Virus record (IMG/VR): IMGVR_UViG_3300034111_000586
Coordinates: 1 to 31,208 of that record
Strand: one strand, 5' to 3'
Source: a virus
Length of the DNA: 31,208 nt
This document shows, piece by piece, positions 11,199-31,169 of the stretch; position 1 is the stretch's first letter; each line of letters starts with the position of its first letter. The notes beneath the pieces were generated by a model that saw only the letters and a list, made by a program, of their open reading frames with translations, made no database searches and had not been told where the DNA came from. The translations under genes and the position numbers were made by a program.

Positions 11199-11230
11199 AC
11201 TCCCGCAAAATCGATCTCAAGGAGGGAAAA

Positions 11231-14661: not shown

Positions 14662-14915
14662 CCAGCGACGACATCATCGAGACCCTGTCGGACCTGAATC
14701 CCGAGGCCCTACTCGCCGACGGATTCGAGCAGGCCCTGGTCGGCTACACGGCCAACTACCACCACCCACACGTCGCCGTGTACAGCGCGAAGAAGTGCAT
14801 CGCGATCCTCGTCAAGCGTGACGGCATGACCGAGGACGAGGCCGAGGAGTTCTTCTCCCTCAACACGCTCGGCGCCTATGTCGGCGAGAGCGGCCCGCTG
14901 TTCGCTTGGATGTGA
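14658..14915 (+). CDS. Small NPEALLADGF-family protein, full length, 85 aa
   Basis: This is the best-preserved of three copies in the window. It has LNPEALLADGFEQALVGY, then HVAVYSAKKCIAILV, then the DGMTEDEAEEFF helix and a C-terminal GAYVGESGPLFAWM. Proteins of this pattern are common in phages, but the function is unknown. The ATG overlaps the previous gene. The truncated copy at 12274 lacks the last third; the copy at 15879 is more diverged. Confidence 0.75.
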   Translation: MTSDDIIETLSDLNPEALLADGFEQALVGYTANYHHPHVAVYSAKKCIAILVKRDGMTEDEAEEFFSLNTLGAYVGESGPLFAWM

Positions 14916-14952
14916 GTCATTCGCGGAGGGGAAACCCGCGAGAGACTGTTTC

Positions 14953-15471
14953 GTGCCTTGGATCGTGTACGAGACCCGCTGCTTGGTCAGCGGAAAAATC
15001 TACATCGGCGTCCACAAGCAGGACGGCGACGAGTTCGACGGATACCTCGGCAGCGGAACGCTGATCACAGCCGCTGTCGAGAAGCACGGACGGGATAACT
15101 TCCGTAGACAGACTCTCTTCGCGTTTGAGTCTGAACGAGATGCCTACGCCAAAGAGGCAGAACTCGTGGGCCGGGAGTGGGTCGATTCGACGTGGACATA
15201 CAACATCAAAGAGGGCGGCATAGGGGGCGTCGGCTTCTCGATGCCAGAGGAGGCTCGCGAGAAAATCCGAGAGTACAGAACGGGAAGGCCGCACAGCGAA
15301 GAGACGAAGGAGAAGATTCGCCAGCATCGGGCCAAGATCGCGTTTCGCCACACTTCGGAGTCTCGGGCAAAGATGTCGGCCTCCAGAAAGGGCATTCCCC
15401 ATTCAGAAGAGCGAAAGCAGAGGATCAGCGATGGCATGAAGCGGTCTTGGCAACTGCGGAGGGCTCCGTAG
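14953..15471 (+). CDS. GIY-YIG homing endonuclease with NUMOD3 repeats
   Basis: A 172-residue free-standing endonuclease. The N-terminal domain has the paired motifs VYETRC and GKIYIGV, with YLGSGTLI, a conserved K-H-G-R-D-N-F and the catalytic-type Glu in AKEAELVG. The C-terminal half has NUMOD3 DNA-binding repeats (GRPHSEETKEKIRQ, GIPHSEERKQRISD). The GTG at 14953 matches the family start best; an ATG at 14878 would overlap the previous gene. GGAGGGG is present but about 21 bases from the GTG, so translation is probably weak. It is a selfish element that likely cuts related phages lacking it. Confidence 0.88.
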   Translation: MPWIVYETRCLVSGKIYIGVHKQDGDEFDGYLGSGTLITAAVEKHGRDNFRRQTLFAFESERDAYAKEAELVGREWVDSTWTYNIKEGGIGGVGFSMPEEAREKIREYRTGRPHSEETKEKIRQHRAKIAFRHTSESRAKMSASRKGIPHSEERKQRISDGMKRSWQLRRAP

Positions 15472-18072: not shown

Positions 18073-18734
18073 TTCTACTTTCGCAGTGGTACGAGCCCGC
18101 AAACGCCAGGCGTCGCGATGAACTGGCGTCCGCGAGGGGGCGGAACGAGTCGAGCGGCGTGTTCGAGAAGTGCGCGTACGTAGACGGCACGTCTCAGAAC
18201 TGGACATACGGCGACTTCTTCTCGCTGGCCGCGTCGCGGTTCTCAGGCCGCGTCTGCGTGATCGCCAACACAGACATCGTCTTCGACGACACAGCGAGCC
18301 TGCTTCCGGACCTCTGCCATCGCGGGCGGCTCATTGCCCTGACTCGCTGGGAGTCCTATTCGTCGCCCCGCATGCTCGGGCACTTCGCCGGAGAGCGGTT
18401 CTTCTCGGGGTCGCAGGACGCCTGGGCGTTCGTCGGCGGCGAACTGACGTCTCTCGGCAAGGACGTGCCGCTGGGTCGCATCGGCTGCGACAACTGCATC
18501 GCCGGTGAAGCGTGTCTGGCGGGGTTCGAGGTCGTCAATCCGTCGCTCGACATCGTGTCGCTCCACATTCACGCCAGCGGGGATCGCGGTGAGCAGAGTC
18601 CCGTGTATGGCCGATACGGATACCCGGAACTCTGCTCGTCGTTTCCAAGCGGCCTCGTGCTGTGCCACGACTGGCGGCCCGGCTCCAGCATGAGTCTCGT
18701 GCAAGCATCCTTGGTTGAAACATGCCAACCGTAA
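18069..18734 (+). CDS. Glycosyltransferase-like protein, 221 aa
   Basis: The GTG at 18069 overlaps the FkbM stop and gives an N-terminus MILLSQWYEP that fits this family. A central VCVIANTDIVFDD supplies a D-x-x-x-D-D metal-binding type motif. LIALTRWE, SGSQDAWAF and RIGCDNCIA follow, a pattern I associate with poorly studied bacterial and viral glycosyltransferase-like proteins. No signal peptide or membrane segment, so it acts in the cytoplasm. It is overlapped by the next gene, completing a three-gene glycan cluster. Confidence 0.7.
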   Translation: MILLSQWYEPANARRRDELASARGRNESSGVFEKCAYVDGTSQNWTYGDFFSLAASRFSGRVCVIANTDIVFDDTASLLPDLCHRGRLIALTRWESYSSPRMLGHFAGERFFSGSQDAWAFVGGELTSLGKDVPLGRIGCDNCIAGEACLAGFEVVNPSLDIVSLHIHASGDRGEQSPVYGRYGYPELCSSFPSGLVLCHDWRPGSSMSLVQASLVETCQP

Positions 18735-19630
18735 ATCTGACTAAGTTCGCAGACGAGATCAGACGACACGATCCGGACCTCATCCTGCCTCCCGATCTGG
18801 AGTTCGCCGATGAGTACTGGCGACGTGTGGAGATCGGCCGTCAGTGGGCCAAGCAACGGCGAGTCGCGCTCGTGGCGATCTGTCGCAATGCGATGCCGAT
18901 CCTGCCTCGCACGCTATCGCTCGTGGAGAAGACAGGAGCGATGTTCGCCGACTGGCGGGCGTTCATCTTCGAGAACGACTCGACGGACGGCACGAAGGAC
19001 GTCCTGAAGGCAGCGGCGGGAGGCAAACTCTCCGTGGCGACGACTGACAACGGTCGCCCGCACTTGAACTACACCAAGTCGTCTGATCGGACGATCGCCC
19101 TGGCTGAGTACAGGAACAACTGCCGACTCTGGTGCGAGTCACAATGCCGCGACTACGACTACGCCATCGTGTTTGATACGGACGCCTGGGGCGGCTGGAG
19201 CATCGACGGCGTCGCCAACACGATCGGACACCTCGAAGACGACGAGTACAGGAATGCTTCTGGTATGGGCTCGTACTCGTGGGCGATCTGGGGGCCTCCC
19301 GTGTGGCCGCAGCCGACCGAGTGCCAGTACGACGCCTGGGCGTGCCGGTGGACGTGGTGGCAGGAGCGGCAGAACATGCTCTGGTTCCATCTCTGGCATC
19401 CGCCCGTGGGTTCTCCCCCGGTGCGGATGAACTCGTGCTTCGGGCAACTGGGTGTGTACCGCATGGGGGACTACATCTCCGGCACGTACGCCGGTGGTGA
19501 CTGCGAGCATGTCGCTCACTGGAAGTCCATGGGCGGCGACTGCTATCTCAACCCGTCGCAGCGGGTGGTTTCATTTTGGGTTCCGGAGGAAAGCGTGAAA
19601 GACGAAGCATGCCACGAGGGCCAAACGTAG
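18722..19630 (+). CDS. Glycosyltransferase, GT69/CAP59-like
   Basis: A 302-residue protein with the family layout: VALVAICRNAMPILPRTL, FENDSTDGTKDVL, the acceptor-side R-x-x-x-L-A-x-Y-R-N (RTIALAEYRNN) and the D-x-D in VFDTDAWGGWS. The tryptophan-rich middle (WGPPVWPQP, WTWWQERQN) and CEHVAHW near the end are further landmarks. These resemble CAP59-type mannosyltransferases and phage relatives. It is predicted cytosolic and to add sugars to a glycan or glycoprotein. Translation is coupled to the previous gene by a 13-base overlap. Confidence 0.8.
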   Translation: MPTVNLTKFADEIRRHDPDLILPPDLEFADEYWRRVEIGRQWAKQRRVALVAICRNAMPILPRTLSLVEKTGAMFADWRAFIFENDSTDGTKDVLKAAAGGKLSVATTDNGRPHLNYTKSSDRTIALAEYRNNCRLWCESQCRDYDYAIVFDTDAWGGWSIDGVANTIGHLEDDEYRNASGMGSYSWAIWGPPVWPQPTECQYDAWACRWTWWQERQNMLWFHLWHPPVGSPPVRMNSCFGQLGVYRMGDYISGTYAGGDCEHVAHWKSMGGDCYLNPSQRVVSFWVPEESVKDEACHEGQT

Positions 19631-20028
19631 CCGTCTGTACGGCGACGTTCTCGAAGATGTGGTTGGCAGGGACGCCGACCAGAGTGATTGCCGAGACTCT
19701 GAAAATCTCGGCAGATCGGTGCGACGCGACTCGTCGCCAGTTGGGCCTGCCGCGACGGGAGAGTTGGCACGGCTCCAAGGCAGGGCACCGCAAGGCCTAC
19801 ATTCCCTCCGAGGCGGAAATCCGGCAGAAGTGCCTGGAGTTCCAGGCCGGGTGGAGCGAAGAAGAGCGAGCCCGTCGCCGCGTGGGCTGGAGCCCCGACC
19901 CGAAGCCCGTCGAGATTCGGGTCATCCCTGAGTCGATCGTGCGGGCCAACTACTCGCACCTCGCCGAAGAGAACACCCCCGGCGGATATCTCGAAGAACT
20001 CACCGATCGTGGAACTTCGGGTGATTGA
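19609..20028 (+). CDS. Helix-turn-helix protein, paralog of the one at 17131
   Basis: The ATG at 19609 lies inside the glycosyltransferase end. The N-terminal half reads WLAGTPTRVIAETLKISADR then RRQLGLPRRESW, an HTH aligned with the 17131 protein. EIRQKCLEFQAGWSEEERAR matches the second helix of that protein. A C-terminal extension (VEIRVIPESIVRANYSHL) is specific to this one. A weak ribosome site suggests coupled translation. Together the pair bracket the glycan module. DNA binding is inferred from the HTH. Confidence 0.6.
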   Translation: MPRGPNVAVCTATFSKMWLAGTPTRVIAETLKISADRCDATRRQLGLPRRESWHGSKAGHRKAYIPSEAEIRQKCLEFQAGWSEEERARRRVGWSPDPKPVEIRVIPESIVRANYSHLAEENTPGGYLEELTDRGTSGD

Positions 20029-20081
20029 AGAACTCCGTGTAGCCTGAACTCTGGCTCTGACACACGGAGGTTTTTCAAGCC

Positions 20082-20366
20082 ATGACTGAACCGAATTACG
20101 GCGCCGGTAACGTCTCGATCTGGGAAAAGATTCGCATCCTGCAAGAGTGGTCGCCAGTTGTTACCTACGTGCAGGCTTTTCTGGCCGAGCATGACCCGCA
20201 CGCCAAGTCTCTGATCGTCGCCGACGCCTGCGAGTGGCTCGCTGTGAAGTCCAAGAACACCAAGGTCGACGACGAACTCGTCGATCACGTTACGGCGATC
20301 CTCAAGTCTCCGCAGGGCGAGGCTTTCCTGCGATGGATCGTCGCCAAAGTTGACGGGGGAAATTGA
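20082..20366 (+). CDS. Hypothetical helical protein, 94 aa
   Basis: The ATG at 20082 follows ACACGGAGG, and a 53-base gap before it separates this gene from the HTH gene. The protein is all-helical (IWEKIRILQEWSPVVTYVQA, KSLIVADACEWLAVKS) with no membrane segment. It starts the run of small envelope-directed genes to 23042. I do not recognise it. Confidence 0.65.
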   Translation: MTEPNYGAGNVSIWEKIRILQEWSPVVTYVQAFLAEHDPHAKSLIVADACEWLAVKSKNTKVDDELVDHVTAILKSPQGEAFLRWIVAKVDGGN

Positions 20367-20641
20367 TGTTTGATGTCGAGTTTACTCTTCGCGCCGCTGC
20401 CGTCGTGGCGGCGGTTTTACTTGTGGCGTCCCCAAGCGTGGTGGGAGCAGTTCAAGCACTCCTGGCGTGGCGGCCGGTCTCGTTCAAGGTTCGGTCCTCC
20501 GGGCCTGAGCCGGAGACGACGGACGACGCCCATGTCGTGCTGGAGATTGCCCGTCGCCTCCAGAAGTCTGGCAACGTCGAGGGGGTGCGGCTGTGCAAGA
20601 GCCTCATCGACGTGCTACTCAAGCCGGAGAAGAAGCCATGA
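20366..20641 (+). CDS. Small membrane protein, one N-terminal TM, 91 aa
   Basis: Start ATG 20366 (GGGGGAA upstream) overlaps the previous stop by one base. One membrane segment (RAAAVVAAVLLVASPSVVGA) is followed by a charged cytoplasmic or periplasmic tail with HVVLEIARRLQKSGNVEGVR. The topology would suit a holin- or spanin-like role, but no family match is recognised, and a structural or regulatory membrane role is equally possible. Confidence 0.65.
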   Translation: MFDVEFTLRAAAVVAAVLLVASPSVVGAVQALLAWRPVSFKVRSSGPEPETTDDAHVVLEIARRLQKSGNVEGVRLCKSLIDVLLKPEKKP

Positions 20642-21126
20642 AGCGAGTACGGCTGATTGCGGCCCTTCTTCTGGCTGCGTACGGCGTGTTCGGCATCCCG
20701 TCACTGCCGAAACTCAGTGTTCCGAGCCTGTCGGCGTCGGTTGTCAGGGAGCCCAGCGAGGCCATGAAAAGCACCGTCAAGCCTGTCGTCCGCGCTGTCA
20801 GCAAGATGTCCCCGATCGACCGACTCTGGCTCCAGACTATCTATAGCAACGCGGCGAAGGTCGTGGCCGCCGACGGCATCGTCGAGCCCCAGGCGATCGT
20901 CTCGACCGAGGGCCTGCGGGCGATCCATGTGGCAATCCTCAAGTTCATCTGGCGAGGTATGGCCGAGAATCCGCCGGGCGAGTACGAGGGCCTGAGCGAG
21001 GCGATCGAGGGCGTAGTCGACGAGGTTCTCGGCGAAGACCAACGGTCGCTGACGCCTGAACTCCGGGCGAAGGCCGTCGAGGTCTTCGATGCGATTGCAT
21101 GGGCTGGGCTTGGAAAGGATCAGTGA
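20638..21126 (+). CDS. Exported helical protein, 162 aa
   Basis: ATG 20638 overlaps the previous stop. The N-terminus KRVRLIAALLLAAYGVFGIP is a signal peptide or anchor. The mature part is helical (PIDRLWLQTIYSNAAKVVAA, LRAIHVAILKFIWRGMAENP, GLSEAIEGVVDEVLGEDQ), without cysteines. Its neighbours are a small membrane protein and a papain-like protein, so an envelope role is plausible. I do not recognise the family. Confidence 0.65.
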   Translation: MKRVRLIAALLLAAYGVFGIPSLPKLSVPSLSASVVREPSEAMKSTVKPVVRAVSKMSPIDRLWLQTIYSNAAKVVAADGIVEPQAIVSTEGLRAIHVAILKFIWRGMAENPPGEYEGLSEAIEGVVDEVLGEDQRSLTPELRAKAVEVFDAIAWAGLGKDQ

Positions 21127-22097
21127 TGCCTGCTCCGTGGCGGCCCCAGGGGTACGTGCCTGATCGCGCGGCGACAGACAGGTTCGTCTCGTCGCTGAAG
21201 TACCCCACCCTGGCGGAAGCCGGGCCGAAACTCAAGAACAACGACAATCAAGACGTCGTTCTCTACCCGGCGATTCTCAAGGTCGATCCGCTCTACAAGC
21301 GTGTGGCCCAGGCAATCGGTTCGTGCGTCGGCCATGGCTGGGCCGGATGCGGGGACGCACTGGCCTCGACGGAAATCGTCGTCCACGGCGAGGCCGAAGA
21401 CTGGAAGGGCCGCATCCTCGAATCCTCGATTTACGGCGTGAGCCGGGTCGAAGCCAGAGGCAAGACCCGCGCGGGCACAGCCGACGGGTCGTTTGGCGCC
21501 GCAGCGGCGAAGGCCGTCATGCAGTGGGGCGTCCTGCACTACGGCGTGGACTACGGCGGCACGGTCTTCAAGGACTACTCTGGCATTCGCGAGAAGCAGT
21601 GGGGCGACACTGGCATGCCTGACGAACTGGAGAAGTTCGCCAAGCAACGCCGGATCAAGACCACGACCCTCGTCACAGATTTTGACTCGTATTGCAAAGC
21701 CATATCCAGCGGGTTCCCGGTCGCCATTTGTTCGGGCCAGGGCTTCACGATGTCCCGCTCGAAGGGAAAGACCGACGACGACATCGTCAATCGGGGCTTC
21801 GCCACACCTCGCGGCGAGTGGCTTCATTGCATGGCCGGGATCGGTAAGCGTGGCGGCAAGCGGCCGGGAGGGCTGATCTGGAACTCATGGGGAAGCAAGG
21901 CCCACACCGGGCCGCACTACTCTGGGATTCCTGACCGTCCTGACGACATACCCGCCGAGTTTCGAGGCTCGACGTTCTGGGTCGACGCTGAAGTCTTGGA
22001 CAAGATGCTCAAGTCTTGGCAAGACTCGTTCGCCCTCTCGTCCTACGACGGCTTCCCGCCCCGGAAACTCCCCTCGTGGACGGGAGGCATCCTGTGA
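21126..22097 (+). CDS. Papain-like cysteine protease fold protein, 323 aa
   Basis: The catalytic set of a C1A/papain-like enzyme is visible: Cys67 in GSCVGHGWAGCG, His234 in WLHCMAGIG and Asn253 in GGLIWNSWGS. A glutamine five residues before Cys67 (Q62) may form the oxyanion hole. There is no clear signal peptide. Length is larger than a minimal papain domain, with an N-terminal extension of about 50 residues. The natural target is unknown: virion maturation, peptidoglycan cleavage or lysis are all possible. Its place among membrane and lipoprotein genes favours an envelope or virion role. Confidence 0.8.
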   Translation: MPAPWRPQGYVPDRAATDRFVSSLKYPTLAEAGPKLKNNDNQDVVLYPAILKVDPLYKRVAQAIGSCVGHGWAGCGDALASTEIVVHGEAEDWKGRILESSIYGVSRVEARGKTRAGTADGSFGAAAAKAVMQWGVLHYGVDYGGTVFKDYSGIREKQWGDTGMPDELEKFAKQRRIKTTTLVTDFDSYCKAISSGFPVAICSGQGFTMSRSKGKTDDDIVNRGFATPRGEWLHCMAGIGKRGGKRPGGLIWNSWGSKAHTGPHYSGIPDRPDDIPAEFRGSTFWVDAEVLDKMLKSWQDSFALSSYDGFPPRKLPSWTGGIL

Positions 22098-22384
22098 CAA
22101 AGAAGGCCCTGCTTGCCGTGCTTGTGCTGGCCGGGTGCCAGCCTGAGCCAAGACTCACGCCGCAGCAGATCGAACTGCTCGGCGAGTGCTTCTCCTGCGC
22201 GGCCTACGAGGTCATCAAGGCCGAGTCCCTCACTCCGGCCCCGCAGCCGCCGCAGAAGTGCTGCGGGAAGTGCAAGGGCGGGCTCGTGAAGTCCGGAGAC
22301 GGCCTGGCGTGGGTGTCGTGCCCGTGCGACGACTCCTGCCCGTGCAAGACGAACTCCCTCATTCCCCCCAAGACCCTGCCGTGA
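22094..22384 (+). CDS. Cysteine-rich lipoprotein, 96 aa
   Basis: GTG 22094 overlaps the previous stop. The N-terminus MTKKALLAVLVLAGCQ ends in a lipobox (LAGC, Cys15), so it should be lipid-anchored. The rest has cysteine clusters FSCAAYE, CCGKCKGG and SCPCDDSCPCK, which may bind metal or form disulfides. Small lipoproteins next to membrane proteins in phages can be outer spanins, but the many cysteines and lack of long helix make this uncertain. Confidence 0.7.
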   Translation: MTKKALLAVLVLAGCQPEPRLTPQQIELLGECFSCAAYEVIKAESLTPAPQPPQKCCGKCKGGLVKSGDGLAWVSCPCDDSCPCKTNSLIPPKTLP

Positions 22385-22731
22385 ACCAGCAAGAACTCCG
22401 CGATCAACTGTGGCGGGAACTGCCGGTCCTGCGGCGAAACATCATCGGCCGCGAGAAGGTCGACGACATAATCACGATCGCCATCGAGCAGTGCCCGCTG
22501 GAGTTCTTCCAGCATATCTCGCAGGGCTCGAACGAGCAGGACGTGGCCCTGGCGGCCTGGGGGCAGTCCGTGAAGCGTGGCTACGGCGAAGAGGCCCAGT
22601 TCGGCCCGCTGTTCTGGATTCTGGTGAGCCCCTTGATTCAGTACTTGCTCAAGCGGCTCTTGGAGTGGTGGTTCGAGTCGCGGGCCAATCGCGTGAAGAT
22701 GGCCGGATGGAGGAGGGAGTTGACGAAATGA
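22381..22731 (+). CDS. Membrane-associated small protein, 116 aa
   Basis: GTG 22381 overlaps the lipoprotein stop. The first half is charged and helical (RRNIIGREKVDDIITIAIEQ); the second has a hydrophobic stretch (FGPLFWILVSPLIQYLLKRL) followed by EWWFESRANRV. That fits one membrane segment or an amphipathic helix near the membrane. I do not recognise the family. It lies in the middle of the run of envelope genes and is coupled to the next. Confidence 0.6.
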   Translation: MNQQELRDQLWRELPVLRRNIIGREKVDDIITIAIEQCPLEFFQHISQGSNEQDVALAAWGQSVKRGYGEEAQFGPLFWILVSPLIQYLLKRLLEWWFESRANRVKMAGWRRELTK

Positions 22732-23042
22732 CCGATGCGACCAAGCAGACGATCGTCGACACGGCGATCAAAGTGGCCGGAGACTTCGGCGTCCCCGTAG
22801 TCATCCTGGCGGCGTTCATCTGGATGGCCCGCGAGGCGGCCACGACGCTTCATGGCACCGTCGTCGTGCCCATCGTGGCGTCGCACACGGAGTTCCTCGA
22901 ATCGACTCGGGACACGCTGCACGAGATCGGAAGAACCCAGGCCCAGCAGGCCGAGACGCTCAAAGAAATGGCTATTTCGCAGATCGAGATCAAGCAGGCC
23001 GTACTTCGGTCTGGGACGAAGCCAACTTTAGGCAATGACTGA
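22728..23042 (+). CDS. Single-TM protein with coiled coil, holin-like candidate
   Basis: ATG 22728 follows AGGAGGGAG. A 104-residue protein with a hydrophobic helix (FGVPVVILAAFIWMARE), then a second weaker hydrophobic stretch (LHGTVVVPIVASHTEFL). A coiled-coil stretch follows (LHEIGRTQAQQAETLKEMAI). This layout is common in phage holins and holin-like proteins, but none is recognised by sequence. It ends the envelope run. A promoter-like box overlaps its stop. Confidence 0.6.
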   Translation: MTDATKQTIVDTAIKVAGDFGVPVVILAAFIWMAREAATTLHGTVVVPIVASHTEFLESTRDTLHEIGRTQAQQAETLKEMAISQIEIKQAVLRSGTKPTLGND

Positions 23043-23056
23043 AGTTTGGATACAGT
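23042..23056 (+). promoter_or_regulatory. Weak promoter-like box before the structural genes
   Basis: AAGTTTGGATACAGT matches the TTGTCTGGATACGAT form of the box at 11 of 15 positions, with TACAGT as a possible -10 element. The next gene at 23101 has an unusually complete ribosome site, AAGGAGGTGA (23088-23097), four bases before its GTG. Confidence 0.3.
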
Positions 23057-23100
23057 AAATGTGCCACGAGTTGGGCATGACCCACGCAAGGAGGTGACAA

Positions 23101-23451
23101 GTGGAACAGAAGATTCGCAGGAAGTACAAGACTTTCCCTATCGCGCTCTCGACCTCAACGGCGGCAGCGACGACGATCCGGTGGGACGATGTGGCCGGTG
23201 GCTGCATTGAGTTAGGAGCCGGGACGGCCGCGACATCGCTGCAAGTCTGGGCAAGCGACACTGACAGCGGGACGTTCGGCCGTCTATACGACTCGACTGG
23301 CGCTGCGGCCGACATCAAGTTGGCTCAGTCGTCGACCGAGGCCCGCGTCTACTCGCTCCCAGATGCCTGCTACGGAGCCGGGGCGATCAAGATCGTGGCT
23401 GGTCAAGAAGCAGCCACGGCGATCACCGCCAGCGTGATGCTCAAGACTTGA
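23101..23451 (+). CDS. Putative virion protein, beta-rich, 116 aa
   Basis: GTG 23101 follows AAGGAGGTGA, a near-perfect match to 16S RNA, suggesting strong translation. The protein is beta-rich and Ala/Thr/Ser-rich (TAATSLQVWASDTDSGTFGR, YGAGAIKIVAGQEAA), typical of small phage structural or fibre-associated domains. It starts the adhesin or fibre-like block. No specific family is recognised. Confidence 0.65.
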   Translation: MEQKIRRKYKTFPIALSTSTAAATTIRWDDVAGGCIELGAGTAATSLQVWASDTDSGTFGRLYDSTGAAADIKLAQSSTEARVYSLPDACYGAGAIKIVAGQEAATAITASVMLKT

Positions 23452-23471
23452 CGTCGGCGAGGAATTGCAGC

Positions 23472-23756
23472 ATGCCCAGGTACTTCCGCGCGACTCCCGA
23501 AGTCTACGCCACGATCTGTGCGCAACTGGACGCGGCATACGGTTACCCGCGACCCGAGACGCTGACTGATCGCACGCTTCCGGAGGCTGGCTCGCTGCCT
23601 GTTGACGAGATCGGCCGGGTGTATCTCGCCGTGTCGGCGGCTTACTGCGACTACGTCTTGCCGTCGCAACTGCTGCCAGAATTGCTCCTCACTGGCGCGG
23701 TGGAGGAGATCACCGCAGAAGACTATGCCGCCTTTCTTCCTGGGGATATTGAATGA
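23472..23756 (+). CDS. Hypothetical small protein, 94 aa
   Basis: ATG 23472 with GAGGAAT upstream gives a 94-residue acidic protein (RATPEVYATICAQLDAAYGY, then GRVYLAVSAAYCDYVL). It is mostly helical and lies between a virion-like protein and the large LamG protein, with an ATGA overlap to the latter. Proteins in this position often assist tail or fibre assembly; that is only a guess. Confidence 0.6.
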   Translation: MPRYFRATPEVYATICAQLDAAYGYPRPETLTDRTLPEAGSLPVDEIGRVYLAVSAAYCDYVLPSQLLPELLLTGAVEEITAEDYAAFLPGDIE

Positions 23757-26362
23757 TGGCGATGTCGCCCATCATCATGCGTCCGCTCGCTCGCAGTCCG
23801 CTGCCGAAGCGGATTGGCGGCCTGGGGCTGTGGCTTGACGCAAACAACGGAGCGAGTTTGACGCTCAACGGAGACGGCGTAAGTGAGTGGCGAGACCTCT
23901 CCGGTCGCGGGCGGCATTTTGTCCAGGCTACTGCCGCAAGCCAGCCAAATGCCGTGAGCCGCACCTACAACGGGCTGCGAGTGATTGACTTCGATGGTAC
24001 TCAGTTTTTGGAGGGCAACTCGGCGACGCTGAATCTCGCCCGCAACGTGCCGGGGCTCACGATCCTGATGGTCGCCAAGGCGGACTCGTACGGAGGTGCC
24101 GAAGTCCACCGGTTTTACAACTGGAAGTGCGGCGGCAACGACTTGTCGCGGGCCTCGCTGTTTGTTCAGGGGTTCGCATCGTCGGCTGAAATCTGGCTCC
24201 GCAGCCGCCGGCTCGACAGCGAGACGTTTTACGACGCCGAGTATGAAGCAGGCCTCGACGCGATCAACGCCAGCGTGTACACAGGCGTGATCAACTTCCA
24301 GGCTGCGGAGAGCCACCTGTATGTCGGCGGCTCACTGGTGGCGAGCAACCTGACCATGGGCACGCCCGGCCTTTCGTCCGACACCGACAGCCAGGACGCC
24401 TCGCTGGGCGCAAGGCTTGCCGACGGCGCGAGCGCGTGGGTGCAGCACCTCGACGGCTTTATTGCGGAGATGCTCGTCTACCAGCGAGTGCTGTCAGACC
24501 TAGAGCGGTCGCGTCTGGAGCAGTACTTGATCGACAAGTGGAATCCGCAGCCTGAGCCATTCTCTCCCGGCTCCCTCCCCGGCCTCGTCGGATGGTATGA
24601 CTTCTCGGACGCATCGACACTGACGGTTGTCGATGGCGAGATCACGGCTGTCGCGAACAAAGGAACCGGAGAGCCGACAGCGACGGCGTTTGAGGCCCTG
24701 GAGCCAGCATTCGTCGCCTCCGCACAGAACGGCCGCAGTGCCGCCCGGTTTCCCCAAAACGACGTTGGCATCGCCACCGGCCTGTCGGTGGAGGTTCCGT
24801 ACACAATCTTCCTTGCCGCTCGCCAGGGAGACGACGGCGATATTCGCCTGCTGTCCAGCGAAACCGATCCCAATCTCATTTCGATTCGCAGAACAAACGA
24901 CAACGTCGTTTACCTAAACGGCCAGTCAATCACGGACGATAAGTTTAGTGCCTCGCACTGGCCGACCTGCGTGACGCTGGAGGTTAGTTCTTTAGAGGCC
25001 ATGGTGCGATACAACGGCACGGATATCGCATCAACTGCTACTGTGGGCGACTGGGGCGACCTCCTCATCGGCAACGGGAACGACTACGAGTCGGGAAACG
25101 GCGACATATACGAGGTGCTGGTCTACGAGGGCATCCTCGCGCAACGCGAGAGGGTCGAGCAGTATCTGATGCAGAAGTGGGACATCCGACCGGTGCCGTC
25201 TCCGAAGATCACGGCTACCACCAGCCTGCCCTTCGCGTCCGCGTGGGCTTCCATCGACACGGACACAGAGTGGTATGCCGTCAAGGTTGGCGACGAATCG
25301 CCGGTCTTGTTTTCTGCCGGGCAAGAGGCATGGAACGAGACGGCCGCAGGGAGCCAGCAGCAGTCCTCGCAGCAACTGGTCGCCAGCGATAGGGGGGCCG
25401 CTCGGCTAGATCACTCGCACGCCAAGTTCGGGAACACAAGCCTGCTGCTCGCAGGGGGGCACCTACAATTGCAGGCGGGCGTCATCGACCTGTCGGCAGG
25501 AGATTGGACGATAGAGTGCTGGTTTCGGCCAGAGACTGAAGACCAGCCCGCAATGTGGCCGTCTGTCGTTAGTTTCGGGGACGGCTGGGTGCCAGGCGCG
25601 TGGTCGCTGCGGTACGATGATGACTCTGGGGCAGCGGGCGCATTCTCGGTGGTGGCCCATGACGAGGGCGCTCATTTGACGGCTGGCACCCCGTCGCCGT
25701 CTGGGCAGTGGCACCATGTCGCAGTAGTGCGAGACGGTGACGATGACAGGCTGTATGTCAACGGAGTGCTGGAGGCCACGCATACCCGAAACTTCACTGG
25801 GGAGCCAGGGGACTACATCTTACGCATCGGCGGCGGCTGGGACGGCGATAGCGCCGACTTGCTCGGCCACATCGACGGACTTCGTATTGTCTCGGGCAGT
25901 GCCATCTACACCGGACCTTCATTCACCGTTCCGGCGGCAGCGCCGACGGCGATCAGTGGCACAGTGCTGTTGATGAACTTCGACGCGCCCGCCACTCCAT
26001 CGCCCCGCGTGATTGAGATTTATCCGTGCGACGCCGAAGGCAACGCGGTCGGTCAGTTCACGGGAGTCGCGCTGTCTGGCAACGCGATCACGTCGCTGCG
26101 TGCGGAGGGCGTGTCCCTCGCGGCTACGGAGCCGGGCTACGTCTACCAATCCGGCTACGGCTCAGTGTACTCCTCCGGCTCGGCAGCGGAGTGCGACCTG
26201 ACTGGAAATCTACTGTCGGCGCAGGGGCTAAACACAGTGTACACGGACCTGCTGGGTGGATCGGGGTCGCTGTTCGTCACTGGCAATCCCGGCATCGACG
26301 CCGACGATCCGACGATTGCGACGGCGAAGGGGTATACGGTCTTTGGGTCGGAGGCGCCGTGA
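23753..26362 (+). CDS. Large LamG/concanavalin-like adhesin or tail-fibre protein, 869 aa
   Basis: Three jelly-roll domains are visible. The first two (about residues 20-260 and 280-475) each start with G-L-G/V-x-W-x-D and close with the same signature, LVYxxxLxxxERxxxEQYLxxKW, so they look like a tandem duplication. The third (about 560-740) has LLLAGGHLQLQ, DWTIECWFRPETE and GQWHHVAVVRDGDDDRLYVN, classic LamG pieces. The C-terminal 100 residues form a short repeat cap (LSGNAITSLRAEGVSLAA, LNTVYTDLL, GNPGIDADDPTIATAKGYT) shared with the protein at 27387. There is no signal peptide. It most likely binds host surface glycans as a fibre. Confidence 0.82.
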   Translation: MMAMSPIIMRPLARSPLPKRIGGLGLWLDANNGASLTLNGDGVSEWRDLSGRGRHFVQATAASQPNAVSRTYNGLRVIDFDGTQFLEGNSATLNLARNVPGLTILMVAKADSYGGAEVHRFYNWKCGGNDLSRASLFVQGFASSAEIWLRSRRLDSETFYDAEYEAGLDAINASVYTGVINFQAAESHLYVGGSLVASNLTMGTPGLSSDTDSQDASLGARLADGASAWVQHLDGFIAEMLVYQRVLSDLERSRLEQYLIDKWNPQPEPFSPGSLPGLVGWYDFSDASTLTVVDGEITAVANKGTGEPTATAFEALEPAFVASAQNGRSAARFPQNDVGIATGLSVEVPYTIFLAARQGDDGDIRLLSSETDPNLISIRRTNDNVVYLNGQSITDDKFSASHWPTCVTLEVSSLEAMVRYNGTDIASTATVGDWGDLLIGNGNDYESGNGDIYEVLVYEGILAQRERVEQYLMQKWDIRPVPSPKITATTSLPFASAWASIDTDTEWYAVKVGDESPVLFSAGQEAWNETAAGSQQQSSQQLVASDRGAARLDHSHAKFGNTSLLLAGGHLQLQAGVIDLSAGDWTIECWFRPETEDQPAMWPSVVSFGDGWVPGAWSLRYDDDSGAAGAFSVVAHDEGAHLTAGTPSPSGQWHHVAVVRDGDDDRLYVNGVLEATHTRNFTGEPGDYILRIGGGWDGDSADLLGHIDGLRIVSGSAIYTGPSFTVPAAAPTAISGTVLLMNFDAPATPSPRVIEIYPCDAEGNAVGQFTGVALSGNAITSLRAEGVSLAATEPGYVYQSGYGSVYSSGSAAECDLTGNLLSAQGLNTVYTDLLGGSGSLFVTGNPGIDADDPTIATAKGYTVFGSEAP

Positions 26363-27021
26363 CCTACTTCAGCACTCCACGCCACCGAGTGGCGATCAAC
26401 GCAAAGGTCGGCTCGTCCTCGCTGGCGAGGGCCATTATCAAGCAGTTCTATCCAAAGCAGAATAGGCTGATCCGCACGGCCGCGTTTCCGCCCGGCGTGG
26501 ACGAGACGAAGCGGCAATGGCACCGAATGTGTCCTCGCACGGGGAAGACTCGCAAGCCGGTGCTGCTCCTGGTGCGTGACCCGTTGTCGCGTTTTCTCTC
26601 GGCCATGCAACAGGTCGGACTCAAAAGCAAGGACGTTGAGGCGGCAATAGACTCGCTGGAAAACGACACAGCAGTGCCGTCGTTGCGCAACCGAAAGAGG
26701 CGGCGGCGGCCAAGCCGGAAGGATCGGCGTATCGGCCGCCTGCGAGACGACGTGCATTTCGCCCACCAGCACACGCTCGCCAACGGGCCGACCAAGTGCT
26801 ACCGATTCCCTGACCACTTAGAGCAGGCGGCTGCGGAGATTGGGCTGACGGGCAGGCTGCCAAGGGCCAACGAGGCCAAGAGAGAGAAGCCGACGCTGAC
26901 TCCCGAGCAGGAGGCAAGAGTTCGCGCGTACTACGCGGCCGATCAGTCTCTGTTTGCGTCGATCACGCAGGCGGGGCATGTGTACACGCCGGCGCTGCCG
27001 GTGGAGCCAGCCGAAGCCTAA
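26359..27021 (+). CDS. Sulfotransferase-like protein, 220 aa
   Basis: The N-terminus RVAINAKVGSSSLARAIIKQ carries the PAPS phosphosulfate-binding loop (KVGSSS), and LLLVRDPLSRFLSAM (R73, S77) matches the 3'-phosphate loop. The C-terminal YYAADQSLFASI resembles the end of Sulfotransfer_2 proteins. The middle contains a very basic stretch (RNRKRRRRPSRKDRR). GTG 26359 overlaps the LamG gene stop, so they are coupled. A phage enzyme here would sulfate a glycan or virion protein; substrate unknown. It is shorter than many family members but has both cofactor loops. Confidence 0.8.
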   Translation: MTYFSTPRHRVAINAKVGSSSLARAIIKQFYPKQNRLIRTAAFPPGVDETKRQWHRMCPRTGKTRKPVLLLVRDPLSRFLSAMQQVGLKSKDVEAAIDSLENDTAVPSLRNRKRRRRPSRKDRRIGRLRDDVHFAHQHTLANGPTKCYRFPDHLEQAAAEIGLTGRLPRANEAKREKPTLTPEQEARVRAYYAADQSLFASITQAGHVYTPALPVEPAEA

Positions 27022-27071
27022 AACCAGGCGGCAACTTTAGTCCTGCTCGCCTGCACTGGTAGCCTGGAGCC

Positions 27072-27383
27072 ATGGCTACTTTCAAGCAACTTCCGGCAGT
27101 GATGAACCTCGCGTTCAAGGCCGGTGACGCCGTGTCGCCGACGGTCGACTTCGACACGTCCCTGACAGGCCTGACAGTCTCGGCCCAGGTGTACTCGCTG
27201 GTTGACCGGAGAAAGATTTACGACATTCCGGTTGTGGTCTCGAACGCCACGAGCGGCGTGGTCACGATGTCAATTTCTTCTTCGCTCACGACGCAGACTC
27301 CTGCTGGCTCGTACGGTTGGCAGATGCAGTGGAGCAGCCCACTGCGAACTGTCATGGCTGGCACGGTCGATGTGATTGGGTAG
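27072..27383 (+). CDS. Small beta protein, BppU-like, 103 aa
   Basis: The ATG at 27072 has CTGGAG directly upstream, close but usable. The pattern LTGLTVSAQVYSLVDRRKIY, then a G-V-V-T-M-S-I strand and AGSYGWQMQWSSPLRTVMAG resembles the Ig-like N-terminal domain of baseplate upper proteins and other fibre-attachment domains. It lies between the sulfotransferase and the leucine-rich protein, consistent with a virion tail-tip part. The call is by resemblance only. Confidence 0.6.
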   Translation: MATFKQLPAVMNLAFKAGDAVSPTVDFDTSLTGLTVSAQVYSLVDRRKIYDIPVVVSNATSGVVTMSISSSLTTQTPAGSYGWQMQWSSPLRTVMAGTVDVIG

Positions 27384-27386
27384 CAA

Positions 27387-28472
27387 ATGCCAGTCTTCGT
27401 CTCGCCCGGCCAGATTTCCGCTTCCGTCTCCGGCAACTCGATCACGGCGAGCGTGTCTGGCGGCAGCGGCGTGGCTGTGTCCCAGTCCGCAAGCCAGCCC
27501 GTGTCGTTTCCGCAGGGAATCCAGACGCCAGCCCCCGTCCAGAGCGTCAACGGCCAGATCGGCAACGTCGTCATTCCTGTGGCAACCTGGGTGCCTCATA
27601 AGCCACCAGGCGTCGCCTGGCTGTCAAGCGTGCTGGACTCTGGCTCGTTCTCTCTTTCGGCTCGCTCGTCGACAGGGTATGCGGCCGTGCAGTGGTGGGA
27701 CGGATCGGTGCAGGCGTACGGCGCGGGATCGCCAGGGCAATACATCGCTGCTTCAAAGGCTGTCCTAGCGTCGGGCTATTGGGCCAAGTCGACCATCAAG
27801 CAAGTATTCGTCTGGTCTTGTGCATCTGCCGCGAACGCATCGCAGTCTGGCTCACTTACGGGGCTCTCCTGCTCTTCAAAGAAAGTCTTTGCTCTCTCGA
27901 TCGACGGCTGCTCGTCGCTGCTCGAAGTCTCGTGTGACTCGAATCAACTCACGAGCCTGAACCTCACTGGCTGCACGGCACTCCAGACGATCTCGTGCCA
28001 CCTAAATAGCCTGACGAGCCTCGACGTCAGCGACGCCACGCCCCTCCCGAGCCTGTACTGCCAGGGCAACTCCCTGCGAGGCCTGGACGTGACGAGAAAC
28101 ACAGCCCTGCAAGTCCTGTCATGCAGCACAAATCTCCTCGCGGCCCTTGACCTCTCGCAGAACTCGGCCCTGGTTGGCCTGTACTGCTTTGGCAACCAAC
28201 TAACAACGCTAGACATTCGCAACAAGCCTGCCCTGCGAGACGTGATCGCATCGAGCAACTCCATTTCGCTCGTGCGGGCAGCGGGAGTCGCCGCGTCTGG
28301 CGTGGCGGGCATGAACGTCGCGTCAAATCAACTCAACGCCGCGTCTCTGAACTCGCTATACACCGACCTCGCGTCAGTCCAGTCAGGCGTGATCTATGTC
28401 TCGGGCAACCCCGGCGTGGCTGGAGACAATCCGGCGATCGCCACCGCGAAGGGATACACGGTCAATGGCTGA
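27387..28472 (+). CDS. Leucine-rich repeat adhesin or fibre protein, 361 aa
   Basis: The N-terminal 120 residues are Ser/Gly/Val-rich and probably attach to the virion. Residues about 150-290 carry seven or more short repeats of about 21 residues, L-x-x-L-x-L-x-x-C/N-x-x-L (for example LTSLNLTGCTALQTISC, LTSLDVSDATPLPSLYC, LAALDLSQNSALVGLYC), with a cysteine column like that of BspA-type repeats. The C-terminal cap (LNSLYTDLA, GNPGVAGDNPAIATAKGYTV) is shared with the LamG protein at 23753. It probably binds the host surface. It overlaps the next gene by eight bases. Confidence 0.82.
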   Translation: MPVFVSPGQISASVSGNSITASVSGGSGVAVSQSASQPVSFPQGIQTPAPVQSVNGQIGNVVIPVATWVPHKPPGVAWLSSVLDSGSFSLSARSSTGYAAVQWWDGSVQAYGAGSPGQYIAASKAVLASGYWAKSTIKQVFVWSCASAANASQSGSLTGLSCSSKKVFALSIDGCSSLLEVSCDSNQLTSLNLTGCTALQTISCHLNSLTSLDVSDATPLPSLYCQGNSLRGLDVTRNTALQVLSCSTNLLAALDLSQNSALVGLYCFGNQLTTLDIRNKPALRDVIASSNSISLVRAAGVAASGVAGMNVASNQLNAASLNSLYTDLASVQSGVIYVSGNPGVAGDNPAIATAKGYTVNG

Positions 28473-29001
28473 CTTCTATCGCACCGTGGGCAAGCACAGC
28501 GTCCTGACGTCAGTGCCGGAACTGGCCGGGCAACTCGGGAACAATTTAGAGCCGAGCCCAAGCGGCCTGCCGGTGGCTGTATTCGGCGAGGGGCACCGAG
28601 ACCTGGGCTCGCTGGCCGTGGGCACGGCTGTCTTTTGGTGGCCCAACCACGCCCAGGAACTGTCTTCGCTGCTGGGCCTAGACTTGCAGCCCTCAAGTCT
28701 TCCGCAAGTCCCTGGCGTCCTGCCTGGATTCATCGTCGACGAGGCTGACTTTGCAGTGCCCCAGACCATCACGGCCACGCAGATTCGCCTCTGGCTTTTC
28801 AGAAATGGCGTGAGCCTGGAGGCTGTCCAGAGTGCGATCGACGCCATCCCAGACGAGGCGGCTCGCGGCGAGACTCGCATCCAGTGGGAGTATGCGCCCT
28901 ACGTAGAGCGGAGCCATCCATTCATCAACGCCCTCGGCCAGAGTCTTGGGCTGACCAGCGAGCAGATCGACCAGGCGTTCGTCGAGGCTGCTCGACTGTA
29001 G
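28465..29001 (+). CDS. Putative phage tail-module protein, 178 aa
   Basis: ATG 28465 lies inside the end of the leucine-rich gene. The C-terminal half (TATQIRLWLFRNGVSLEAVQ, DEAARGETRIQWEYAP, LTSEQIDQAFVEAARL) matches a pattern common in phage tail-module proteins, where it is predicted helical and of unknown role. The N-terminal half is beta-rich with PVAVFGEGHRDLG. It closes the fibre block. Confidence 0.6.
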   Translation: MADFYRTVGKHSVLTSVPELAGQLGNNLEPSPSGLPVAVFGEGHRDLGSLAVGTAVFWWPNHAQELSSLLGLDLQPSSLPQVPGVLPGFIVDEADFAVPQTITATQIRLWLFRNGVSLEAVQSAIDAIPDEAARGETRIQWEYAPYVERSHPFINALGQSLGLTSEQIDQAFVEAARL

Positions 29002-29026
29002 GCGAAAATCTCGTTGCGTGCGATTT

Positions 29027-29050
29027 TGCGACCGCTACGATCGGGTCGCA
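29027..29050 (+). promoter_or_regulatory. Hairpin at the start codon of the DUF551 gene
   Basis: TGCGACC (29027-29033) pairs with GGTCGCA (29044-29050) around a 10-base loop; the last base is the A of the ATG. No AGGAGG is visible ahead of this start. The hairpin could terminate the fibre operon or restrain translation here. Confidence 0.35.
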
Positions 29051-29523
29051 TGAGCAACTGGATTCCCACCGGCGAGCGACTTCCAGTCGAGACTGGCTGG
29101 GTGCTGGTCACCGTCGAGACTGACGGGCGTCGCGAAGTTGGCATCGCCAGGGCGATCAACAAGCAGATCGGCCTCGACTCGCCAGACATGGCCCCGCGTG
29201 TCACGCACTGGATGCCGCTGCCGGAGCCCGCGAAAAACTGCGTGGCTGGATTGGTCTTGTGCGTCGCCGTGCTGGTCGGGTGCGCCGCGCCGAATCCCGC
29301 AGCCTTCAAGTCCTACACCGTGACGGTCACGAGGCCGGATGGCGTTGTCCACCGGACTCTGCAAATCCAAAGCACAGAACATCCAAGAGTCGAGTCGTTC
29401 GACGACGAAGGCGGGTGCCTGCGGGTGCTGTACTGGAATGGTTCCTTCGATCGCTACAGCACGCAGCCATTTCCGTCGGGGTGGCTCGTCGAGGTCGAGC
29501 CGAACGCGGAGGCGAGCAGATGA
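29050..29523 (+). CDS. DUF551 domain fused to lipoprotein-like sequence, 157 aa
   Basis: The first 60 residues are DUF551-like: SNWIPTGERLPVETGWVLV and the family's closing VTHWMPLPEPA. The family normally ends there. Here the frame continues with CVAGLVLCVAVLVGCAAPNP, which looks exactly like a lipoprotein signal with lipobox LVGC, then a beta-rich domain (YTVTVTRPDGVVHR, CLRVLYWNGSFDRY). An internal GTG at 29241 or ATG at 29212 could start a separate lipoprotein. Either this is a true fusion or two gene products share one frame. Confidence 0.7.
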   Translation: MSNWIPTGERLPVETGWVLVTVETDGRREVGIARAINKQIGLDSPDMAPRVTHWMPLPEPAKNCVAGLVLCVAVLVGCAAPNPAAFKSYTVTVTRPDGVVHRTLQIQSTEHPRVESFDDEGGCLRVLYWNGSFDRYSTQPFPSGWLVEVEPNAEASR

Positions 29524-29711
29524 GCGACGACACCTCGTGGATGGACGGGCCTGTGCTGGTCGATCCTCCGAGCGGCTGGAGGTGGGGATTCCCAAAACTC
29601 TGGGATCGCAAGACGCCGTGCCGGGAGTGGCTGGTCGCCAATGGGTATCCAGAGCATCTGGCGAATCAAGACTTGCCGTGCCGGTTCATTCAGCCGGAGC
29701 GAGAGGATTGA
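29520..29711 (+). CDS. Hypothetical small protein, 63 aa
   Basis: ATGA overlap with the previous gene. A Trp/Pro-rich short protein (PPSGWRWGFPKLWD, then REWLVANGYPEHLANQD). No signal, membrane or known domain. Immediately followed by the next ATG with no gap. Coding is supported only by the tight packing. Confidence 0.5.
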   Translation: MSDDTSWMDGPVLVDPPSGWRWGFPKLWDRKTPCREWLVANGYPEHLANQDLPCRFIQPERED

Positions 29712-30005
29712 ATGCACGTCATCGACAAAGCAGCCTATGAAGGCGACATCGTCTCTCGGCTCAGGAACTGGCGAGGGCTGCACCTCGCTCACAGCGGGGA
29801 GTTGTTCGAGGAGGCGGCCGACGAAATTGAAAAGATTCGCGCCTACAGAGACGAAGCCGAGGATGCGGCGTCGATAGCGAACCTGGCGGCACTCAGCCTG
29901 CGGCTGACCGACGATGAGTGGGGGGCGATTGCATACTATGTCGGCACTGGCGGGCCTCGTGGTGTAGACGCCACGCTCCGCTCACTGCTGGAGCGAACGA
30001 AATGA
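29712..30005 (+). CDS. Hypothetical helical protein, 97 aa
   Basis: It starts directly after the previous stop with GAGCGAGAGG upstream. The protein is acidic, with a long helix (FEEAADEIEKIRAYRDEAED) and a C-terminal LRSLLERTK that resembles the SLLERTR end of the protein at 30174. The two may share a module. No family is recognised. Confidence 0.6.
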   Translation: MHVIDKAAYEGDIVSRLRNWRGLHLAHSGELFEEAADEIEKIRAYRDEAEDAASIANLAALSLRLTDDEWGAIAYYVGTGGPRGVDATLRSLLERTK

Positions 30006-30181
30006 GCCTGGACAAGGCTATCGAACACGGCAAGGAGAAACGGAAGGGCTATCACAAATCCGCCGCCGTTGACCGCACATGCCGACCCGGAGGCACATGC
30101 CCGTATTGCTCTAGGGGCAGGCGGCACAAGAACAAAAAGCGAGCGGCAGCGGCGAAGGACAAGGAGAGTGACTGTGGCTGA
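30002..30181 (+). CDS. Conserved small basic Cys protein, 59 aa
   Basis: The pattern LDKAIEHGKEKRKGY, then RTCRPGGTCPYC and KNKKR is one I have seen in many phages and prophages. It has three cysteines (C-x5-C-x2-C) and many Lys/Arg, so it may be a small zinc-binding or nucleic-acid-binding protein. ATG 30002 overlaps the previous stop. Role unknown. Confidence 0.75.
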   Translation: MSLDKAIEHGKEKRKGYHKSAAVDRTCRPGGTCPYCSRGRRHKNKKRAAAAKDKESDCG

Positions 30182-30404
30182 AGAACAGAATCCGGTGGCG
30201 TGGGCGGCGGTCGCCAAGAATGACGCCGCCGACTGGCTGCGGCACGCGATCGCCGCCGACCGCATCAGGATCGCGCAACTGGAGTCAGAGATCGAGCGCC
30301 TGCGGCTCACCTTCGAGGAGCGGCAGGCGATGATGCGCGCGATGTATCGGGTTGTTGGCGCCGACTCCGAAATACTCTGGTCGCTGCTGGAGCGGACGAG
30401 GTGA
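30174..30404 (+). CDS. Hypothetical coiled-coil protein, 76 aa
   Basis: GTG 30174 follows AAGGAGAG. One helix (RIRIAQLESEIERLRLTFEE) is a strong coiled-coil candidate; the C-terminus LWSLLERTR echoes the protein at 29712. It overlaps the previous gene by eight bases. No family recognised. Confidence 0.55.
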   Translation: MAEEQNPVAWAAVAKNDAADWLRHAIAADRIRIAQLESEIERLRLTFEERQAMMRAMYRVVGADSEILWSLLERTR

Positions 30405-30432
30405 GAACGACAAGGATCAGGAGCGGCGAGAC

Positions 30433-30720
30433 ATGAACACTGACAACACGCAGGACGGTGCCGAGCCGTCTCCTGCATCCGCTGGTTCTGCCACGCTCAC
30501 TGTGGACGACGTTGCGTTGCTCTACGACGAATGGAAGCGGCGATACTGCGGCCCGCGAGACATGGTGATTCTGGTGCGGAGGCCAATGTGGAAACGAGTG
30601 CTTTCCGTCCCGTGGATGTGGTGGTCGCACTTCGGACTGGCTTGCCAATACACGGGCGTTTTTCAAGCCGCGAGGCTGGCAACGCTCTTTGTCTGGGCGT
30701 TCCTCACGGTTCGCAAGTAG
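30433..30720 (+). CDS. Hypothetical protein with hydrophobic C-terminus, 95 aa
   Basis: The ATG at 30433 follows AGGAGCGGCGAGAC. The N-terminal third is Ser/Asp/Thr-rich and likely disordered. Then comes VDDVALLYDEWKRRYC, and a Trp-rich, weakly hydrophobic end (SVPWMWWSHFGLACQYTGVF, ATLFVWAFLTVRK) that may associate with membranes. It is the last + strand gene, and the attC-like element begins two bases after its stop, in opposite orientation. Confidence 0.55.
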   Translation: MNTDNTQDGAEPSPASAGSATLTVDDVALLYDEWKRRYCGPRDMVILVRRPMWKRVLSVPWMWWSHFGLACQYTGVFQAARLATLFVWAFLTVRK

Positions 30721-30722
30721 TG

Positions 30723-30812
30723 GTAGAACGGTGGCGATCAATGGCTCGCGGCCACAGGACGTTCCATCACGCACCACGATGCCCGCGAGTCCATTGCATC
30801 GCGTTGTTCGCC
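30723..30812 (-). repeat. attC-like site A (integron recombination element)
   Basis: Read on + coordinates, GCGAT, CAATGG and CTCGCGG (30734-30751) pair with CCGCGAG, then T, CCATTG, then C, ATCGC (30783-30802). The two unpaired bases T30790 and C30797 lie on one strand, the asymmetry that gives attC sites their orientation. End boxes are GTAGAAC (30723-30729) and GTTCGCC (30806-30812). The orientation matches the minus-strand gene, whose 3' end faces this site. The boxes only partly fit the RYYYAAC/GTTRRRY consensus. Confidence 0.75.
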
Positions 30813-30864
30813 CAATCGACAGTCTTTTCTAAGGTTTCGCGGAAACGCCCTGCCTATCACCTTG

Positions 30865-31065
30865 TCATTTTGTGCCAGTAGGCGGAGAACTGCCCGAGAG
30901 CCTACGCAAAATCTGGATAAAGAGATACTGCACAGCAATGATCGGCACAAGCATGATCGCACCAAGACACAGGATCAAGCTGAGCAGAGGGTGAACAAAG
31001 TAGAGCGATACCGCGGCGACGCCAACAGCCACGCATGACAACAACAACGAGCTGGAGAGTTTCAT
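30865..31065 (-). CDS. Integron cassette gene: 66-aa membrane protein
   Basis: The only minus-strand gene supported in the window. The ATG at 31065 has AGGAG eight bases upstream (31078-31074). The protein is almost entirely hydrophobic, with two membrane segments (LLLSCVAVGVAAVSLYFV and LLSLILCLGAIMLVPIIAV) and a short polar tail (RRLSGSSPPTGTK). I do not recognise it. It lies between two attC-like sites in the cassette orientation (gene then attC), so it is most likely the cargo of an integron gene cassette. Such cassettes often carry small membrane or toxin-antitoxin proteins; no partner gene is visible. Confidence 0.75.
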   Translation of the reverse strand: MKLSSSLLLSCVAVGVAAVSLYFVHPLLSLILCLGAIMLVPIIAVQYLFIQILRRLSGSSPPTGTK

Positions 31066-31081
31066 CGCGCACACTCCTGAC

Positions 31082-31169
31082 GGCGAACACCCGCGATCAG
31101 CGGCTCGCGGACAAGGCTTTGCAAAAATGACCGGCTTGTTCGCGAGTCCGCTGCATCGCTTCGTTCGAC
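31082..31169 (-). repeat. attC-like site B (integron recombination element)
   Basis: GCGAT, CAGCGG and CTCGCG (31093-31109) pair with CGCGAG, then T, CCGCTG, then C, ATCGC (31141-31159), with the same two unpaired bases as site A (T31147, C31154). The inner stem extends with GACAAG/CTTGTT. End boxes are GGCGAAC (31082-31088) and GTTCGAC (31163-31169). Paired positions that differ from site A do so on both arms (AT-to-GC switches in CAATGG/CCATTG versus CAGCGG/CCGCTG), so structure is conserved. No gene is visible from 31170 to 31208. Confidence 0.8.

Follow-up and report, generated by a model that had tools for sequence, protein, structure and literature searches.

Planctomycete-type attC sites in an integrase-less phage cassette array are predicted to act as translation starts for inverted genes

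The right end of the window, by which we mean the entire linear viral record of 31,208 bp that was analysed, appears to be the start of an integron cassette array without an integrase (a CALIN) in the genome of a tailed phage. Our overall reading, which we hold with good confidence, is that the array is built on attC sites of planctomycete type, that a host integrase would act on these sites in trans, that most of the cassette genes are inverted relative to their sites, and that the attC site is predicted to provide the translation start of the gene. The attC sites, the unit boundaries, the phage context, the inverted polarity, the Shine-Dalgarno sequences and start codons with their frame, and the absence of intI from the records searched are all read from sequence.

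A preliminary description of the window had pointed to two attC-like hairpins, here called sites A and B, enclosing a complete cassette, and had placed a sharp phage junction at position 30720. Both hairpins are present where it had put them, and a third site, site C, lies to their left. The features of the region are as follows.

30402–30491, minus strand: attC site C, with R'' GCAGAAC, arms GGAT[G]CAGGAG[A]CGGC / GCCG-CTCCTG-ATCC and R' GTTCTCA, found by both covariance model and structural scanner
30723–30812, minus strand: attC site A, with R'' GGCGAAC, R' GTTCTAC and unpaired G and A six bases apart
31082–31169, minus strand: attC site B, with R'' GTCGAAC and R' GTTCGCC; its cassette runs off the contig
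30729–31087, minus strand: cassette 1 unit, 359 bp, cut G^TT in each R' box, in the canonical gene-then-attC order
30865–31065, minus strand: cassette 1 gene, encoding a 66-aa hydrophobic protein, with ATG at 31065 and AGGAG 8 nt upstream, in canonical orientation
30408–30728, minus strand: cassette 2 unit, about 321 bp, cut G^TT to G^TT
30433–30720, plus strand: cassette 2 gene, 95 aa, starting inside site C and stopping just before site A, inverted relative to its own attC
30419–30423, plus strand: Shine-Dalgarno sequence AGGAG inside site C, in the 6-bp attC stem, 9 nt before the ATG
30433–30489, plus strand: start codon and attC-encoded N-terminal tag MNTDNTQDGAEPSPASAGS, from sequence reading and the embedded-start scan
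29712–30404, plus strand: flanking phage genes that resemble cassette bodies (ends SLLERTK / SLLERTR), with no recognisable attC start, read from translations

Sites A and B share 83–86% identity in their arms at a spacing of 357–359, and both fold as DNA, with z values on the two strands of −2.4 and −3.0 for site A and −4.8 and −3.8 for site B. Each is an imperfect inverted repeat ending in AAC and GTT (the R'' and R' boxes), with the same two unpaired bases six apart (minus strand GCGAT[G]CA..GG[A]C). Unpaired bases at this distance in the 3' arm of the bottom strand define the polarity of an attC site; they are T and C in the window sites and T and G in the textbook attC of aadA1, so that the second base is C here and G there. 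The R' boxes GTTCTCA, GTTCTAC and GTTCGCC depart from strict GTTRRRY, as do those of arrays in bacterial genomes.

A covariance model built for the purpose from only 14 bacterial attC sites, mostly of planctomycete genomes, matches site A at E 1.3e-16 and site B at E 3.6e-13, picks out site C at E 4.4e-11, and finds nothing further over the whole window. The same model recovers the aadA1 attC of plasmid R100 on the correct strand (E 4e-8) and, in the nearest relative of the window, a viral contig of 97,385 bp, all 12 sites found by the structural scanner together with two weaker ones (E down to 1e-17). The scanner, which looks for the pattern AAC..helix[bulge]6-bp helix[bulge]..GTT, identifies three sites in the window; shuffled sequence totalling 91 kb gives no match, and the attC cluster of phage TJE1 is recovered independently. 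In an earlier version that did not require the A bulge, ten shuffles yielded 2 matches. A search of the region against Rfam, which holds no attC family, returned a lone chance match to a microRNA. Judged by sequence and fold, we conclude that sites A, B and C are true attC sites and that chance is excluded.

The two cassettes of the window are of different kinds. Cassette 1, bounded by G^TT cuts at 30729 and 31087, is the complete 359-bp unit of gene and then attC that had been proposed, and the two R boxes concerned, R' of site B (GTTCGCC) and R'' of site A (GGCGAAC), are complementary, as they should be in one circular cassette. Its protein matches no Pfam family and has no relatives in the viral contigs or in 382 Planctomycetota genomes. 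Because its gene is canonical and its R boxes are of host type, it seems to have come recently from a bacterial integron, and it is probably an ordinary bacterial cassette captured from an integron of the host.

Cassette 2, in contrast, does not have its gene upstream of its own attC in the top-strand direction; cassette 1 does, and most viral cassettes do not. The gene to the left of site A, taken earlier for the end of the phage genes, is in fact the cassette 2 gene and begins inside site C. Another viral contig, L043, matches the window at 96% over exactly 30403–30729, with unrelated flanks beyond either R box. Since this sharing is exact to the base and the gene starts within site C, position 30720 is not a phage border; the preliminary description overlooked site C, cassette 2 and the inversion of cassette 2 relative to its attC. 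Contig L226 carries the body of the cassette 2 gene at 99% identity with a different attC-encoded start and tag, and in the 97-kb relative a homologue without a tag lies outside the array and has a start of its own.

Inversion is the rule among the viral cassettes. Their genes run against the canonical attC direction in a ratio of 63:10, compared with 4:22 (reversed to forward) at bacterial loci, in a count that uses longest open reading frames in GC-rich DNA and leaves 49 viral intervals ambiguous. The standards for polarity behave as they should: aadA1 on R100 and the sites of phage TJE1 are canonical, and the top strand defined by the bulges reads away from intI in 5 integrons of bacterial genomes. 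In 19 of 20 viral contigs that hold both an array and a placed terminase, two near-duplicates included, the attC top strand is opposite to TerL.

The second distinctive feature is that the attC site itself can hold a Shine-Dalgarno sequence and an ATG, in a frame that leaves the site into the gene. This is found at 123 of 253 distinct viral sites and at none of 75 bacterial ones; the contrast persists among sites gathered by the same broad pattern (93/179 viral, 0/28 bacterial) and by the narrow pattern alone (17/75 viral, 0/13 bacterial), although most viral sites were gathered by one sequence pattern and the counts are not a census. No such start occurs on the opposite strand of 221 sites. 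The embedded starts adopt one common frame relative to the R'' box in 117 of 123 cases, across more than ten classes of length and position, and in two large attC families the third codon positions are the most variable in the loop. The stop codon of most tagged genes lies only a few bases from the following attC, and in 101 of 115 the first half of the body offers no alternative Shine-Dalgarno sequence and ATG. The tags end in SPASAGS, SAASRGS and similar sequences; SDDNTQDGAEPSPASAGS is a further example of an attC-encoded N-terminal tag.

On these grounds the gene moved by an attC site appears to obtain both its ribosome-binding site and its start codon from that site. In the commonest coding families (ATG offset 28 or 31) the Shine-Dalgarno sequence AGGAG lies in the 6-bp stem, paired to CTCCT of the other arm, and the folded hairpin might repress or hinder translation. 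Among the products of the tagged genes are C5 and N6/N4 DNA methyltransferases and HNH nucleases, and most of the genes encode small proteins with common short motifs, PVAWAV, LTDEER and LLERTK, seen by eye.

Comparison with known phage CALINs offers an alternative, namely that host cassettes were acquired passively and that the embedded starts and the inversion are incidental. Such arrays, with two or more attC sites and no intI, are known from phages, may carry DNA methyltransferases, and have sites, those of TJE1 among them, shown experimentally to recombine with IntI1 (Qi et al. 2023, PMC9892861). Canonical cassettes are found both in TJE1 and, with host-type R boxes, as cassette 1 of the window. 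Accident, however, would not be expected to produce so strong a bias towards inversion in viral and not in bacterial loci, nor embedded starts at about half of the viral sites and no bacterial ones, nor a single frame for nearly all of these, nor a polarity almost uniformly opposite to TerL; we therefore consider passive acquisition unlikely.

In the arrangement that we favour instead, an integron integrase of the host would act in trans on the folded attC strand, excising and inserting cassettes. Most cassette genes, inverted relative to their attC sites, would thereby be aligned with the late operon of the phage, and the hairpin that serves as recombination site would double as the 5' leader of the gene, about half of the sites having a Shine-Dalgarno sequence followed by an ATG whose frame is constant. 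Translation would begin in the attC, read the 3' arm as a short tag (for example MSDDNTQDGAEPSPASAGS), continue through the R'' box into the body and end at the next attC. Each cassette, among them cassette 2 of the window, would thus be a unit ready for translation under transcription of the phage operon. We infer that the embedded start is used in vivo and that the arrangement carries a selective advantage.

The boundaries of the mobile units can be read from the R boxes. Over 171 neighbouring site pairs, drawn from the window, the 97-kb relative and other viral and bacterial loci, the boxes are complementary at 3.32 of 4 positions across a cassette and at 2.10 within one site; a permutation control gives 1.88, with a maximum of 2.15 in 2000. 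Complementarity across cassettes is what circles of single cassettes predict, and is not predicted for an ordinary hairpin repeat. Beyond the pair formed by L043 and the window, 11 further pairs of homologous cassettes end exactly at the AAC box and have different neighbours.

A hairpin repeat peculiar to the phages, acting as terminator, packaging signal or recombination hot spot and spread by homologous recombination, could resemble attC, and some observations would suit it: the phages have no integron integrase, relatives encode an unrelated tyrosine recombinase, internal segments recur among some of the bodies, and exchanges are at times located inside bodies or sites. Against it stand the cross-cassette complementarity of the R boxes, the units that end at the exact base of an R box, the matches to a bacterial integron site model down to E 1e-17, and the occurrence of sites of the same type next to intI in bacteria. 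We regard such a repeat as improbable, rather more so than passive acquisition.

True cassettes, as we take these to be, raise the question of which side of the gene its attC lies on. For pairs of homologous bodies, the attC sites on the start side agree at a median identity of 0.84 against a background of 0.62, and the next ones at 0.64. Bodies are thus linked to the start-side attC, and the mobile unit is the attC with the gene read from it; the gene is therefore inverted, in agreement with the polarity given by the bulges. The converse arrangement, in which an attC would open the cassette that follows it, with G^TT cut on the strand of the gene and with bodies lacking a start, was rejected as the main mode for the same reason. 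In a minority of pairs (12 of 72), the same body nevertheless stands under a different attC family, and in 8 of these 12 the alignment begins at the exact base of the R'' box. As the sequences stand, simple bottom-strand recombination does not explain this reassortment of bodies and attC families at the R'' box. Given the common frame, exchanges of bodies at that point would be productive.

The array belongs to the phage. The window encodes a helicase, a primase-polymerase, DNA methyltransferases and tail proteins, and its nearest relative, the 97-kb contig, is about 87% identical to it over long stretches and has portal, terminase, protease and tape measure genes. In that relative at least 12 attC sites, all on one strand, lie at 90.1–94.5 kb, upstream of the terminase and between phage genes. 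Among viral contigs, at least 119 stretches match the attC site pattern; the scanner finds sites in 98 viral loci, two or more in 57, and on both strands in none. A terminase match is present in 24 of 49 array-bearing contigs (a strong TerL in 22), and in the 20 contigs with both array and placed terminase the array lies 2.5–14 kb upstream where the order is directly readable, the circular distances for fragments being only indicative. Having two or more attC sites and no intI in a phage genome, these arrays are phage-borne CALINs. Nucleotide searches of isolate phage genomes, for which the end of the window and the array of the relative served as queries, found nothing.

Of the two possibilities in the preliminary description, a phage carrying cassettes is thus the right one. 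The other, a prophage (or, we add, a misassembled contig) beside a planctomycete chromosomal cassette array, is very improbable and already largely refuted: the window contig does end within the array, and a second contig, 99.98% identical to window 18396–30576, stops at 30576, just before site A, but that contig agrees with the window into the cassette of site C, terminase and portal genes come after the array in the 97-kb relative, array and TerL occur together in 20 viral contigs, and intI is found in none of 28 viral records.

Other observations concern the window and the records at large. Two neighbouring DNA methyltransferase genes of one PHROG family (11171–12277 and 12908–13852) lie outside the array, and an open reading frame at 14878–15471 contains a stretch judged by eye to resemble a GIY-YIG nuclease (IYIGVHKQDG..GYLGSG). 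The viral records are metagenomic fragments, of which a few may be misfiled integron fragments; one 12-kb contig filed as viral, L055, has up to ten longer, bacterial-looking attC sites with GTTAG-type boxes and may be a fragment of a bacterial integron.

The attC sites also point to the bacterial partner. The integron integrase (NCBIfam TIGR02249) is absent from all 28 viral records, including contigs of 97–204 kb, and the arrangement of a complete integron, intI next to attI, is found in none of them, the window itself being a fragment. In contrast, of 19 bacterial genomes (mostly Planctomycetota) that share the site type, 11 have a TIGR02249 match above the cut-off. A connection with planctomycete integrons, which the preliminary description based on sites ending in GTTCGCC, is supported: when bacterial genome loci are collected with the narrow site pattern, 20 of 28 belong to Planctomycetota (Kuenenia counted), and R' GTTCGCC occurs in arrays of bacterial genomes with the same site type. 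The broad site pattern is present in just 7 of 392 sampled Planctomycetota genomes.

The sites being of the planctomycete chromosomal type, it is most likely the integron integrase of the host that moves the cassettes in and out, and the shared attC type suggests that the hosts are probably planctomycete bacteria. A tyrosine recombinase of the phage was considered as integron integrase and rejected, being Xer-like and reaching at best 16.5 bits against the TIGR02249 cut-off of 265 (Pfam/NCBIfam). This Xer-like recombinase, at L037:1171–2037 and about 288 aa long, is conserved in five relatives.

Compared with the planctomycete chromosomal integrons, the phage arrays have the same attC fold, length and arm sequences; the chromosomal integrons differ in having intI, mostly canonical gene orientation and no start codon in any of 75 attC sites. 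With the phage CALINs of Qi et al. 2023 they have in common a phage genome, two or more attC sites and the lack of intI, but are distinguished by mostly inverted genes, by a Shine-Dalgarno sequence and ATG in the attC, by their occurrence in many phages, and by a place upstream of the terminase. The best-studied of those CALINs, in TJE1 and PH101, are described as typical (PMC9892861).

Two known systems join a recombination site to translation in other ways. ORF-11 of attI1, in class 1 integrons, places a Shine-Dalgarno sequence and start codon in a recombination site and aids cassette translation (PMC8876359), but it belongs to a single attI1, encodes a short separate peptide and acts by translational coupling on the first cassette only, whereas here each coding attC would fuse a tag to its cassette protein. 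Fused cassettes such as blaGES-1/aacA4 have open frames joined across the junction (PMC4670013); these are rare products of attC loss, whereas the tagged phage cassettes retain an intact attC that contributes to their coding sequence. In the literature searched, mostly without subscription papers and preprints, we found no report of attC sites that carry the start codon of inverted cassettes, or of planctomycete-type arrays in phages.

Integron cassettes are usually regarded as promoterless and reliant on the host platform. Translation of the following cassette is reportedly impeded by attC hairpins (PMC4670013); here, by contrast, we predict that the hairpin acts as the signal to start. We lean, with less assurance than for the overall reading, towards the broader proposal that a large group of phages has turned attC into a combined module for recombination and translation start, in which a hairpin start of fixed frame, inverted bodies, in-frame reassortment at the R'' box and a borrowed host integrase would build arrays in which small proteins and anti-restriction enzymes all bear the same kind of tag. 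If so, one lineage of phages has made the integron serve its own ends, exchanging genes through the host integrase at a fixed place in its genome, and several of the exchanged genes are DNA methyltransferases that could counter restriction. It would also open a way for cassettes to pass between phages and environmental integrons and would explain, in a form that can be tested, why cassettes are inverted, and it suggests looking in viral collections for attC sites on the strand opposite to transcription.

One further feature of these phages concerns the terminase itself. In about ten array-bearing phages, among them the 97-kb relative (L027:3456–4760), the terminase frame is broken by one stop codon; this is TAG, TAA or TGA in different phages, which suggests a split or read-through gene.
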